The notes under the pieces: model-generated
Databases searched by the model: none
The model's input: only the letters and a program-made list of their open reading frames with translations
What the model was told of the DNA's origin: nothing
Made by a program: the position numbers and the translations under genes
Shown: positions 16,442-20,093 of the stretch, piece by piece
Numbering within the stretch: position 1 is the stretch's first letter
How the letters are laid out: every line of letters starts with the position of its first letter
IMG/VR virus record: IMGVR_UViG_3300024346_003214
Coordinates: 1-20,093 of that record
DNA: 20,093 bases
Source: a virus
Reading direction: 5' to 3' (one strand)

Positions 16442-17084
16442 TTTTACACCACCCGCTTTCATAATCACGCCAGTATAGTTTCTTGATGCGGTGTATCTGT
16501 TGCTCGGTCAACACATCACCATACATTTTCAAGGAAGTCTTATTATCCCAAATATCCAACTGGTCGGGAGACAATCCAAGTTCTGAAGATTCGTTTAAGA
16601 ATACCATAAGTTGAGAAAGTTCGTCAATATGAACAATCAGATTATAATCATGCGTACTGTTCATATACCAAGATTGAGTATAAAAATGATTATTTTTAAA
16701 TAATCCATCTTCAATCTTATCCAAAACAGTGTCCAACTCTTTATCTAAACTCGGTAGTTCATTCAAACGACCTAATCTAATATGCTTCGCTTGGTTGGCC
16801 AAAATATATTCACATGCAGATTTAAAACGGTCTACAGGGTCACGTTTAATTGCTATCCGATAACTATTTTTTCTAAAGGGCATTTCAAACTGACAACTAT
16901 AGTTTTTAACGCAATCCATTCTATATTTGCGGCCTACGTACTCATCATGTCCCCGATAGATACGATAAAGTTCTTTGATAGAAGACATGCCGTTTTTAGG
17001 ACACAGTCTAATATCAATGTTGTTAGGAAAATATAAAATATTATCAGCAGGAGTCATCTCATAATGACGTATGTGAGTTCCCAT
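16431..17084 (-). CDS. Sulfotransferase-like protein inserted between gp44 and gp62
   Basis: A 217-aa protein. RLCPKNGMSSIKELY (26-40) resembles the 5'-phosphosulfate-binding P-loop of PAPS-dependent sulfotransferases (PKxGxTS), and YRIAIKRDPVDRFKSACEY (75-93) resembles the 3'-phosphate-binding RDPxxRxxS motif. The rest is helical and ends WRDYESGW, a common ending in carbohydrate sulfotransferase-2-type proteins. It would move sulfate from PAPS to a sugar or other hydroxyl. Its ATG directly follows the gp44 stop and its end overlaps gp62 by 11 bp. Possible acceptors are phage or host glycans made with the epimerase, dehydrogenase and glycosyltransferase in this window; that link is inference. 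Confidence 0.7.
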   Translation of the reverse strand: MGTHIRHYEMTPADNILYFPNNIDIRLCPKNGMSSIKELYRIYRGHDEYVGRKYRMDCVKNYSCQFEMPFRKNSYRIAIKRDPVDRFKSACEYILANQAKHIRLGRLNELPSLDKELDTVLDKIEDGLFKNNHFYTQSWYMNSTHDYNLIVHIDELSQLMVFLNESSELGLSPDQLDIWDNKTSLKMYGDVLTEQQIHRIKKLYWRDYESGWCKNEY

Positions 17085-18029
17085 TTATTGTTTAATCTCC
17101 ACGTTCGCCATAACTTCGGTCATACATGCGACTAGATTCAGTTCATGATCCGCAACGAATGCATTCTTGTACTGATAATCAGCAAGAATAAGAACAAGTT
17201 GTGGAATACTGTTGGGTGCGACATGATCATACATGCGATCATATATGCCGCGAAAAATAGAAGCAGGTTCAACATCAATATTGTTGACGACCCACGACCG
17301 CATTTTCTTGAAGTTTTTATCTCGTATAGATGTAAACAACTGGGTGTATGGGTCTGTTACGTCTTGTCCTATTGATGGAGCAACGCTAAGTGTTCCCGAA
17401 ATAGACCCCTTCTGCAACTCATTTAGTACACGACGCCAGTCTGGTGCGTGTTTCATTATGACTTGCGCCAACATGTCTTTGTGGTATTCGACACCTTCAT
17501 CACGAAGAATGTCCATCGCACGAGACATAAAGTCCGCCGATAAAGACTGTAGACCTTTCTTGGTCGTGTTGAACGCAATCTTAGTACAACGAGAATGCAG
17601 TGGTTCAATAATACGGTTCTCGAAGTTACACGTCATAATGAAACGACAGTTGTTCGAGAACTCTTCAATAAATCCACGCAACGCAGGTTGTGTGGACTGT
17701 GGGTTGAGGTAATCTGCCTCATCCAGAATAACTACTTTATAACCACCGGACAACGAAACGGAAGAGGCGAACTGCTTGATCTTGCCGCGCAGTGTGTCAA
17801 TGTTACCTTCTTCTGATCCATTGATGACGATATAATCAAGATCTAGTTCTTCACAAATCGCTCGTGCGACTGTGGTCTTACCAGTACCAGCGGTACCTGC
17901 AAACATCATGTTGGGAATCTCTTCACCATCCACGATGTTTTGAAAAGTAGTCTTTAGTTCTTTCTGTAGAATCGTCTCCGAGACTTTGCGTGGACGATAC
18001 TTTTCAACCCATAAAAATTCATTGCTCAT
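17085..18029 (-). CDS. 44: Clamp-loader ATPase large subunit gp44
   Basis: A 314-aa AAA+ ATPase (T4 gp44 is 319 aa). LWVEKYRPRKVSE (6-18) is the classic clamp-loader start. Walker A is GTAGTGKT (45-52), Walker B is VVILDEAD (99-106), sensor-1 is near FIMTCNFENRI, and the SRC arginine-finger motif is at 146-148. It opens and loads gp45. GAGG lies 6 nt before the ATG. A sigma70-like promoter at 18065-18093 precedes it, so it heads its own unit (gp44, sulfotransferase, gp62, regA and more) rather than following gp45 directly as in T4. Confident. Confidence 0.97.
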   Translation of the reverse strand: MSNEFLWVEKYRPRKVSETILQKELKTTFQNIVDGEEIPNMMFAGTAGTGKTTVARAICEELDLDYIVINGSEEGNIDTLRGKIKQFASSVSLSGGYKVVILDEADYLNPQSTQPALRGFIEEFSNNCRFIMTCNFENRIIEPLHSRCTKIAFNTTKKGLQSLSADFMSRAMDILRDEGVEYHKDMLAQVIMKHAPDWRRVLNELQKGSISGTLSVAPSIGQDVTDPYTQLFTSIRDKNFKKMRSWVVNNIDVEPASIFRGIYDRMYDHVAPNSIPQLVLILADYQYKNAFVADHELNLVACMTEVMANVEIKQ

Positions 18030-18064
18030 TTAAACCTCATAATATAAGTAGTAATCAATCAGAC

Positions 18065-18093
18065 ATTATACACCAAAAGTATCTGTATGTAAA
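18065..18093 (-). promoter_or_regulatory. Sigma70-type promoter for the gp44 operon
   Basis: On the minus strand TTTACA (18093-18088), 17-nt spacer, TATAAT (18070-18065), 11 of 12 consensus positions. Predicted start near 18058 leaves a leader of about 29 nt with a GAGG ribosome site. The -35 box is part of an imperfect palindrome, TGTAGACATGTTTACA (18103-18088). The 107-nt gap between the oxidase gene and gp44 otherwise holds only A/T-rich sequence. Confidence 0.75.
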
Positions 18094-18136
18094 CATGTCT
18101 ACAATAGTATTTATCTAATAAAAATTTTATATGCGA

Positions 18137-18727
18137 TCAGTATTCGTCAGCATATCCGTGATTTATTTTAGCATGGTGCATTTCATCACGACGAACACAC
18201 ACGATCATATCAGAGAGCATTGCACCCTCTTGTAAATCTATATAATAGTCAATGGCGATCTGTGGGGCAGGAATATCTTTGATTTCACCTGCCTGAATTA
18301 ATGCCAAGTAACTAGTGTAACTGTTCACTGCCTCTTCTTCAAAATACCCAGTCATTCGGTGTGCAGTGCGAGGGAATAACATATACATTAACAGATAGTA
18401 ATGCCAGAAGATGAACTGGACCAAAATAATCAAAACTCTTTCTAAGATAGAAGGCGAAACAATCTCCATAAAAAACATTAGATGCTTACGTTCATTGGTC
18501 GCCTCATCAAGTAGTTCTTGGATCTTAGTACCATTGCCCTTCTGCAGTCTGCGTAGACTGTACAAGTGCGTTAGCATTCCACCAACCATGCCCGGCACTC
18601 CAGCAACCGTCTCTAAGATGAGAGCGCGTTTGCCATAGTTGCGACCAAAGAAAGTGTCTGCAAAGAATCTAAAGAAAGCGGTCATAGATTTTGCAAATGT
18701 GTCTGATATTTTTGTAGTAATATTCAC
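18137..18727 (-). CDS. aox: Alternative oxidase (ubiquinol oxidase, di-iron)
   Basis: A 196-aa alternative oxidase. The four iron-ligand segments are complete: LETVAGVPGM with Glu39, NERKHL with Glu79 and His82, GYFEEEAVNSYT with Glu130/131, and RRDEMHH with Glu182 and His185. Hydrophobic helices between them (about 40-60 and 96-118) fit a monotopic inner-membrane protein. AOX oxidises ubiquinol and reduces O2 to water without pumping protons. PAPQIAIDYY near 153-162 resembles mitochondrial/proteobacterial AOX rather than plastid terminal oxidase. The start is GTG 18727, with GGA 6 nt upstream; ATG 18685 is a poorer alternative. It begins 14 nt after the tRNA 3' end. N-terminal presequences are absent, and the length is near the family core. 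Confidence 0.93.
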   Translation of the reverse strand: MNITTKISDTFAKSMTAFFRFFADTFFGRNYGKRALILETVAGVPGMVGGMLTHLYSLRRLQKGNGTKIQELLDEATNERKHLMFFMEIVSPSILERVLIILVQFIFWHYYLLMYMLFPRTAHRMTGYFEEEAVNSYTSYLALIQAGEIKDIPAPQIAIDYYIDLQEGAMLSDMIVCVRRDEMHHAKINHGYADEY

Positions 18728-18741
18728 GTCTTATCCAAAAG

Positions 18742-18807
<66 letters not shown>

Positions 18808-18817
<10 letters not shown>

Positions 18818-19056
18818 ATGTTCTGTTTCAGTTTTTTCTTACTTTTTTCTGTAAGAGTTCTTACTATGTATATGCGTGTGAATGCTACAAATGAAATTCC
18901 TACCGTTAAAATAGTAGACAAAACTATTGGGTCTGTTATTCCCCACTTTACGACTGCCAACCATGTGTAAAGAACATTTAACGGGTAGTTAATGACGGTC
19001 CCTAATGCAACGTGAATAGACGTTTCTTTTGCGATTAGAGGGTCATAGAACTTCAT
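18808..19056 (-). CDS. Two-helix membrane protein, unknown
   Basis: An 82-aa protein with two hydrophobic helices (about 15-36 and 42-62), then a basic tail (RIYIVRTLTEKSKKKLKQ). A short helical protein with this R-x-Y-x-x-R pattern after the second helix resembles small membrane proteins in other marine phages, but I cannot assign a function. AAGGAGTC lies upstream of the ATG, inside the 3' arm of the large hairpin at 19057-19135, so translation may depend on RNA folding. The last 10 bp, including the TAG stop, are also the 5' end of the tRNA, so tRNA processing would cut its mRNA. Confidence 0.72.
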
Positions 19057-19135
19057 AAAAAAAATGACTCCTTGAATATAAAATAATATAAATCAAATAA
19101 AACTGTATTCTTGAGCGCAAATACTCAAGGAGTCA
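19057..19135 (-). promoter_or_regulatory. 15-bp hairpin with U8 tail that hides the next gene's ribosome site
   Basis: On the minus strand the arms are TGACTCCTTGAGTAT (19135-19121) and ATATTCAAGGAGTCA (19079-19065), 15 paired bases with one G-U, loop 41 nt, then eight U before the AUG at 19056. It follows the 76-aa gene by 6 nt. The 3' arm contains AAGGAG, the ribosome site of the membrane-protein gene. A short alternative stem, CTTGAG/CTCAAG (19129-19110), would compete for the same 5' arm. This could be a terminator, a translational switch, or both. Confidence 0.6.
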
Positions 19136-19141
19136 AAAGGG

Positions 19142-19372
19142 TTACTCTGAGTCAGACTCAGAAGCAGATTCGGCATGTGCCTTAGCGACTTGCTCATAAA
19201 GCGCTACGACTTGGATTGCTTGATCACGAAGTTGACCAATAGTGGTGAGTTCCTCACCCTTGAAACCACCACGTGTGACGACAGTATCTACTACTGCAAC
19301 ACACGACCGTGCTACACGGTTTGCGAGATCGTTTAGTGATGCTTGTTCTTGTGACATAATTTCGTCTGACAT
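19142..19372 (-). CDS. Small protein downstream of the clamp gene, unknown
   Basis: A 76-aa protein with no family I recognise. It is mainly helical: residues 9-30 (EQASLNDLANRVARSCVAVVDT) and 45-68 (IGQLRDQAIQVVALYEQVAKAH), separated by TRGGFKGEEL, and ends in an acidic Ser/Glu tail (SASESDSE). There is no membrane segment. GGAG lies 6 nt before the ATG and overlaps the last codons of gp45, so it is coupled to the sliding-clamp gene with one base between stop and start. Its position suggests a clamp or replication-related role, but that is not demonstrated. Confidence 0.75.
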   Translation of the reverse strand: MSDEIMSQEQASLNDLANRVARSCVAVVDTVVTRGGFKGEELTTIGQLRDQAIQVVALYEQVAKAHAESASESDSE

Positions 19373-19373
19373 T

Positions 19374-20054
19374 TTATGCTCCGTATGATGAAGATTTCTC
19401 TAGCGCAATAAAGTATTGCGTATCTGAAGTAAGTGATCGGAAATGAGAGATCAACTTTGTTGAGACCGAGACATCATAATCTTCACCAAGAAGTTTCATG
19501 TTAGCAACACCCATGATGAAGTTGAAGTCTGTATCCGCAGGGAAGTTACCCTCGACTAAAACTGAGAATGAGTTAGATGTAGAGTTATCAACATCAATCA
19601 CTCGAATTTCTATACTACCATTACCAGAAGGACGAATAGAGATAGTGTCGTAACCTAGAGCGGCAGATGCTCTCTTGACTTTCGACAACGTCTCGTTAGT
19701 CAACACAAACTTGACTTCGCACTCAGGCATGATGATGTCTTTCTTAGGAGCAGCTAACATCTCAGGGTCAGAGTAAAAATACTTGACCGACGATAGACCA
19801 CTACCATCTGATACGGTACAATAACTCTCATCAAAGTCAATTGAAGGATTGTCTACGAGAGATAAGACCGACAAAAACTCTGACAGATCATAGATCCCGA
19901 ATGTGCTAGGGAAGTTCTCATCAACTTCTGCACGAGATACGATATTCTTTGCGATTGACATAGTCTTCAGGATGTTACCGCCATTGACTACAATGTTTGG
20001 GTTGATAGTCGAGAAGTTACGCAAGATCTCGACCGTGCGACTAGATAGTTCCAT
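19374..20054 (-). CDS. 45: Sliding clamp gp45
   Basis: A 226-aa protein (T4 gp45: 228 aa). The N-terminus ELSSRTVEILRNFSTINPNI mirrors T4 KLSKDTTALLKNFATINSGI; FGIYDLSEFLSVLSLVD matches T4 IYDLNGFLGILSLV; and the later ANMKLLGEDYDV matches ANMKMQPGNYKL. It forms the trimeric processivity ring for gp43 and in T4 also activates late transcription with gp33 and gp55. GAGGAA precedes the ATG. A TATAAT at 20084-20089 may be its promoter. It starts the gene run, with the 76-aa gene directly downstream. Confident. Confidence 0.95.
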   Translation of the reverse strand: MELSSRTVEILRNFSTINPNIVVNGGNILKTMSIAKNIVSRAEVDENFPSTFGIYDLSEFLSVLSLVDNPSIDFDESYCTVSDGSGLSSVKYFYSDPEMLAAPKKDIIMPECEVKFVLTNETLSKVKRASAALGYDTISIRPSGNGSIEIRVIDVDNSTSNSFSVLVEGNFPADTDFNFIMGVANMKLLGEDYDVSVSTKLISHFRSLTSDTQYFIALEKSSSYGA

Positions 20055-20083
20055 TGATTGATTCCTCAGTTAATATGTTACAC

Positions 20084-20089
20084 ATTATA
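20084..20089 (-). promoter_or_regulatory. Possible -10 element upstream of gp45
   Basis: TATAAT on the minus strand, about 30 nt from the gp45 ATG. The matching -35 position lies beyond the window edge, so the promoter cannot be confirmed. If used, the leader would be about 23 nt and contain the GAGGAA ribosome site. Confidence 0.4.
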
Positions 20090-20093
20090 TAAT

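Follow-up and report, generated by a model that had tools for sequence, protein, structure and literature searches.

The sliding-clamp unit in the window (the whole analysed stretch of viral DNA, 20,093 nucleotides) is followed by a long hairpin, a real element that acts as RNA. Judged by its relatives, the hairpin is under selection of a distinctive kind: the sequence of its arms turns over almost freely while their pairing is kept. Its position suggests a gate between the clamp genes and a downstream segment made up of an 82-aa ORF, a tRNA, and an alternative oxidase gene, the output of all three of which it probably limits. The reading that we favor, with a probability of roughly 55%, is that of a cis-acting attenuator gating the segment behind the clamp unit.

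All the genes surrounding the hairpin lie on the minus strand (Table 1). The 82-aa ORF gave no Pfam family above the cut-off in a Pfam search. In phage C48C1 this ORF (3939-3691 in locus L001; OQ984149.1, 25884-26099) is unannotated, and the annotation at that place consists of two small ORFs on the opposite strand. Its end shares the first 10 bases of the tRNA-Thr (window 18808-18817), the anticodon of which is AGT rather than TGT in two of the related loci (L114 and L135). The alternative oxidase domain gene (PF01786) is present in most relatives with the hairpin.

Table 1. Features of the hairpin locus in the window, listed along the minus strand
Feature	Position	Strand	Remarks
Sliding clamp (gp45)	20054-19374	-	First gene of the unit upstream of the hairpin in the window
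76-aa ORF	19372-19142	-	Behind the sliding-clamp gene; stop codon just before arm A
Hairpin	19135-19065	-	Between the 76-aa ORF and the 82-aa ORF
5' arm (A) of the long stem	19135-19121	-	6 nt past the stop codon of the 76-aa ORF
CTTGAGT, part of arm A pairing locally with B	19129-19123	-	p=0.023 against loop shuffles; folding
Element B, GCTCAAG, alternative-stem partner	19116-19110	-	Folding and comparison with relatives
Conserved loop element, TATATTAT	19090-19083	-	Immediately ahead of arm C; reads TATWATG in most relatives
3' arm (C) of the long stem	19079-19065	-	Folding and covariation
AAGGAG, Shine-Dalgarno-like	19073-19068	-	Within the 3' arm, 12 nt before the AUG
U8 run	19064-19057	-	Separates the stem from the AUG; intrinsic-terminator-like
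82-aa ORF	19056-18808	-	Begins immediately after the U-run; ATG at 19056-19054
tRNA-Thr (TGT)	18817-18742	-	Overlaps the end of the 82-aa ORF
Alternative oxidase gene	18727-18137	-	GTG start; PF01786, E 5.9e-68; last gene of the putatively gated segment
Clamp loader	18029-17085	-	Behind the alternative oxidase gene

In the window, the long stem spans 15 bp around a loop of 41 nt and is followed by U8 and the AUG, exactly as a sequence-only reading of this DNA had described it. An inverted-repeat search finds 14 of the 15 pairs to be Watson-Crick, and folding pairs all 15, including one G.U. The RNA of 19057-19137 folds at -22.8 kcal/mol (z -6.1), with none of 200 shuffles folding as well; when more flank is included in the fold, z is -3.5. 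The same reading had placed AAGGAG in the stem, and it does indeed lie inside the helix, with the AUG of the 82-aa ORF outside it. Among 11 inverted repeats, the hairpin is the only one of at least 13 nt with arms more than 25 nt apart, except for one inside the gp44 gene. A scan for such stems returns it as one of three window matches at an equal score cut and its C48C1 counterpart as the top match over 50 kb, with weaker matches of this type arising in shuffled DNA too.

The relatives carry the case for selection. Phage C48C1 is 75% identical across 97% of the 17000-20093 stretch and has its hairpin at the same place, with both arms differing in sequence. Further loci were obtained from IMG/VR through searches with the 82-aa and 76-aa proteins; the 198 stretches behind the 76-aa ORF, among which several contigs are represented more than once, fall into 63 groups by shared 8-mers. 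The long stem is present at the same place in 29 of these groups (128 of the 198 stretches), with arm A starting 6-14 nt past the stop codon of the 76-aa ORF, and the remaining 34, mostly more distant, lack such a hairpin and stand outside the counts on the 29. Across the hairpin-bearing groups, the arms align gap-free over a 12-bp core, in which 325 of 336 possible pairs are standard, in 28 different arm pairs (L194, L205, and L226, with scores of 26-27, were excluded from this count by name). In 2000 shuffles that deal the 3' letters anew, the pairs average 231 and never exceed 250, and sliding the partner by 1-3 bases leaves 124-181. A MAFFT alignment of 10 sequences made without use of the structure (A4) gives the same picture: pairing holds in 94.3% of its cells, both partners have changed in 11 of 16 pairs, and its covariation of 0.425, as against 0.225, is reached by none of 500 shuffles. 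The sequence-only reading had staked the hairpin on conservation of its arms and on covariation in related phages; what the relatives display is compensatory change in both arms, by which the arms are kept.

The wobble pairs identify the strand on which selection acts. Over core positions 1-11 there are 19 G.U against 1 A.C, an excess to be read with the fact that the best stem per sequence was picked with G.T allowed, which somewhat favors G.U (L113, with a register slip in the form of a bulge, is in the core-pair count and out of the wobble count). As G.U is far above A.C, the sense (gene-strand) RNA is the selected molecule. Every palindrome is a DNA feature too, and one might envisage a protein-binding site or a cruciform rather than an RNA; however, the near-complete freedom of arm sequence and this sense-RNA signature render such a DNA-level role highly improbable.

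In its relatives, too, the hairpin separates the clamp genes from the tRNA and oxidase genes, in agreement with the position originally claimed for it. It is nevertheless not tied to what follows. In L088, a protein search gave no match to the 82-aa ORF or the oxidase, and the hairpin is retained. In L114, L135, and L136, a different gene comes after the hairpin (in L114, a putative peroxiredoxin-like gene), with the 82-aa ORF further on. Its maintenance where the 82-aa ORF is absent or displaced assigns it to the end of the clamp unit, not to the 82-aa ORF.

This retention in front of differing genes is also what would be expected if the hairpin were no more than an intrinsic terminator of the clamp unit, one with an unusually long loop and an incidental alternative stem, a less likely possibility in our view. 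Like intrinsic (Rho-independent) terminators, it has a stable, G+C-rich stem, with a U-run directly behind it in the window (U8), and a U-run of at least 4 (lengths 4 to 9) follows the stem in 20 of the 29 groups. Moreover, T4 and DLP6 have terminator-like UUCG hairpins at the same place in the clamp region, between the clamp and clamp-loader genes. However, those hairpins differ in having a short tetraloop and no long loop, and no 76-aa ORF is annotated there. Intrinsic terminators do not usually have loops as long as 41 nt, and a terminator scan allowing loops of 3-8 nt did not list the hairpin among its sites. Two further observations speak against a bare terminator: the stem is kept in the 9 groups without a U-run, and the 27-64 nt between the cores across groups hold a conserved element for which such a terminator would have no need. 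The start codon immediately after the hairpin in most lineages is a further departure from intrinsic terminators. Judged by the U-run, the earlier designation of the hairpin as a terminator fits 20 of the groups, the other 9 having none.

A corresponding division is seen in the Shine-Dalgarno signal, where sequestration within the stem does not hold up as a general mechanism: an SD-like tetramer lies within the 3' arm in only 9 of the 29 groups and is missing in 20, among them the C-rich families such as L053, L100, and L104, and in the three lineages with an intervening gene (L114, L135, and L136) the gene that comes next has its start further away. The 9 groups without a U-run have the start codon of the 82-aa ORF directly after the stem, as ATG in 7 of the 9 and, read by eye, as TTG in L060 and L061. 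Neither the U-run nor the SD-like tetramer is thus universal, and, with the one absent from 9 and the other from 20 of the 29, no single output mechanism can serve all lineages. Persistence of the stem in the absence of a U-run and of an SD is compatible with a 3'-end stabilizer or an RNase processing site that would protect the clamp mRNA and separate the downstream message. Double-stranded stretches this long are typical of 3'-end stabilizers and RNase barriers. That role would leave unexplained why the stem sits so near the next start codon in most lineages, and we consider it quite unlikely.

The attenuator that we favor might draw on a second pairing. The sequence-only reading had proposed two mutually exclusive stems, and in the window sequence folding recovers both conformers: with the 3' arm removed, the RNA forms the CTTGAGT/GCTCAAG stem (A.B) at -8.5 kcal/mol, and with the 3' arm present, the long stem (A.C) prevails at -22.8 kcal/mol. 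By folding energies, A.C overtakes A.B once 5-12 of the 12 core C bases are out. Outside the window, support for the alternative stem is moderate. The A.B helix is better than in shuffled loops at p < 0.05 in 12 of the 29 groups, with p-values that count related sequences as independent; in a control that uses A arms and loops taken from other families, 11 of the 29 groups come up to the 10% level, and these belong mainly to the GGGTTCGTGGG and GGGGCGGTGGG arm families. An alignment of 19 sequences shows A.B covariation of 0.263 versus 0.188 (equaled in 2 of 500 shuffles), with no excess of double-change pairs (134 of 500 shuffles), and in the clade 2 alignment A.B pairs at 83% of cells without covariation. 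L051, L071, and L113 lack the helix, and in L087, L091, and L114 it is weak. The alternative stem is therefore likely, though not general: the proposal gains from the covariation in the 19-sequence alignment and loses from its lack in clade 2 and from the few groups at the 10% level. By eye, members of different clades (L060, L061, L082, and others) share, within the loop that the alternative stem encloses, a pyrimidine-rich stretch resembling TCTTTGCC.

The loop between the arms holds a conserved element that a plain attenuator does not account for. Of the 29 loops, 24 contain TATWAT (7.0 on average in shuffles, at most 15) and 18 contain TATWATG (1.8 on average, at most 6), at a nearly fixed distance from arm C. 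This -10-like string invites comparison with T4 genes e, soc, 49, and I-TevI, where, according to PMC3014915, a helix in long upstream transcripts covers the downstream start region and a promoter-like element lies between the arms. By that precedent, a promoter in the loop would start transcripts at C that lack A and are stem-free, with the long transcripts being blocked; indeed, a start 7 nt downstream of the element would place initiation between -6 and +1 of the C core in all 29 groups. However, none of the 29 hairpin regions contains TATAAATA, so that a T4-type late promoter between the arms is absent throughout, or TTGACA, even though C48C1 has both classes elsewhere, and the best -35 match is 2.9 of 6, as against 3.1 in shuffles. 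The two C48C1 promoter classes, recognized by eye, are an early TTGACA...TATAAT and a late CGTATAAATA, and the loop element fits neither. Beyond the -10-like string, a promoter in the loop thus finds no support from the -35, TATAAATA, or TTGACA searches, and with a like TATWATG overlapping the gp44 Shine-Dalgarno, where a -10 role is unlikely, we regard the T4-like alternative as rather unlikely. In favor of the attenuator reading, from the hairpin to the oxidase start in the window, no promoter-like site of at least 9 of 12 was found except inside the hairpin, and no TATAAATA site; one match of 9 of 12 (19136-19107) overlaps arm A. Elsewhere in the window, four perfect TTGACA-17/18-TATAAT sites lie on the coding strand near gene starts (13322, 11796, 9286, and 8377, minus strand). 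At the second of these, a terminator-like hairpin (11802-11781, minus strand) holds in its 5' arm and loop the TTGACA of a 12-of-12 promoter (11796-11768), a terminator/promoter overlap.

One other candidate reader of the loop element is the RegA-type repressor of the phage, which encodes a RegA homologue (PF01818, E 2.6e-44). The element would then be an operator through which this repressor acts on the hairpin or the next gene start. According to PMC3014915, T4 RegA binds AAAUUAUGAUU at gene 44, which resembles the UAUUAUGAUU of many loops. The gp44 start in the window is preceded by a RegA-operator-like TATATTATGAGG/GGAG (18046-18035, minus strand), and the gp44 leader has TATWATG within -35 to +6 in 24 of 24 relatives, overlapping the Shine-Dalgarno, while the rest of the leader varies. 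Against this, the RegA sites described in the same text are loosely defined and A+U-rich, the loop of the window itself reads TATATTATTTTA, without an AUG, and a TATWATG-like string occurs also at the start codons of several C48C1 genes. On these sequence likenesses, we judge an operator role improbable. Two further candidates were rejected. A small ORF running from the loop AUG into the 82-aa ORF was dropped because, by eye in the relatives, its frame changes with the length of the U-run; leader-peptide stalling by the 76-aa ORF found no conserved stalling sequence, the tails varying from acidic to basic.

Taking the attenuator reading forward, its workings may be pictured as follows. The element would act in cis within the sense transcript, where the clamp unit of gp45 and the 76-aa ORF ends. 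A transcript from the clamp promoter would run on, and arm A would pair first with the nearby B, where B exists; once 5-12 of the 12 core C bases had emerged, the longer A.C stem would be favored. A ribosome ending the 76-aa ORF 6-14 nt before A may influence this folding. Formation of A.C could then have two outputs: termination at the U-run in the lineages having one, and closure of the region before the 82-aa start codon where that ORF follows directly. Each transcript would then yield plenty of clamp but only small amounts of the 82-aa protein, tRNA-Thr, and alternative oxidase. The metastable leader of the MS2 maturation gene, in which a transient local hairpin holds back the formation of an inhibitory stem over a longer range, offers a likeness, with the order of A.B before A.C being drawn here from folding energies only. 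A more elaborate scheme can be entertained, if with considerable doubt: a three-strand switch, A pairing with B and then C, whose loop element would be read by the RegA homologue or RNA polymerase, coupling clamp supply to alternative oxidase expression and representing a regulatory RNA class of marine T4-like phages outside Rfam.

The hairpin has partial parallels among known systems. It shares with the T4 e, soc, 49, and I-TevI hairpins the helix near a downstream gene start and the promoter-like element between the arms. It differs from them, besides lacking a late promoter, in that the helix lacks an SD in many members, a U-run follows in most, and the arms covary across distant phages. 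Likewise, as a structured RNA of marine T4-like phages near metabolic genes, it recalls manA, wcaG, and PhotoRC-II, the structured RNAs of marine phages treated in PMC2864571; it differs in that the Rfam 15 models do not match it. At gathering scores, Rfam 15 matched only the tRNA, with no known RNA family or riboswitch at the hairpin, and at E up to 1 it added two hits, which fall well short of the gathering scores and lie on the opposite strand. Our literature search found no paper on C48C1 and no description of the hairpin element in the available portions of T4 reviews and general RNA papers, including PMC3014915, PMC2864571, and PMC3037559.

The hairpin clearly exemplifies a phage RNA element that retains its pairing through turnover of its sequence, and it is spread across 29 sequence groups, mostly of uncultured phages, among the marine T4-like phages. 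Lying between replication genes and a respiratory gene, the alternative oxidase, it would mark a point of control there, and it provides a defined place to study the ratio of the clamp to downstream products in T4-like phages far from T4.
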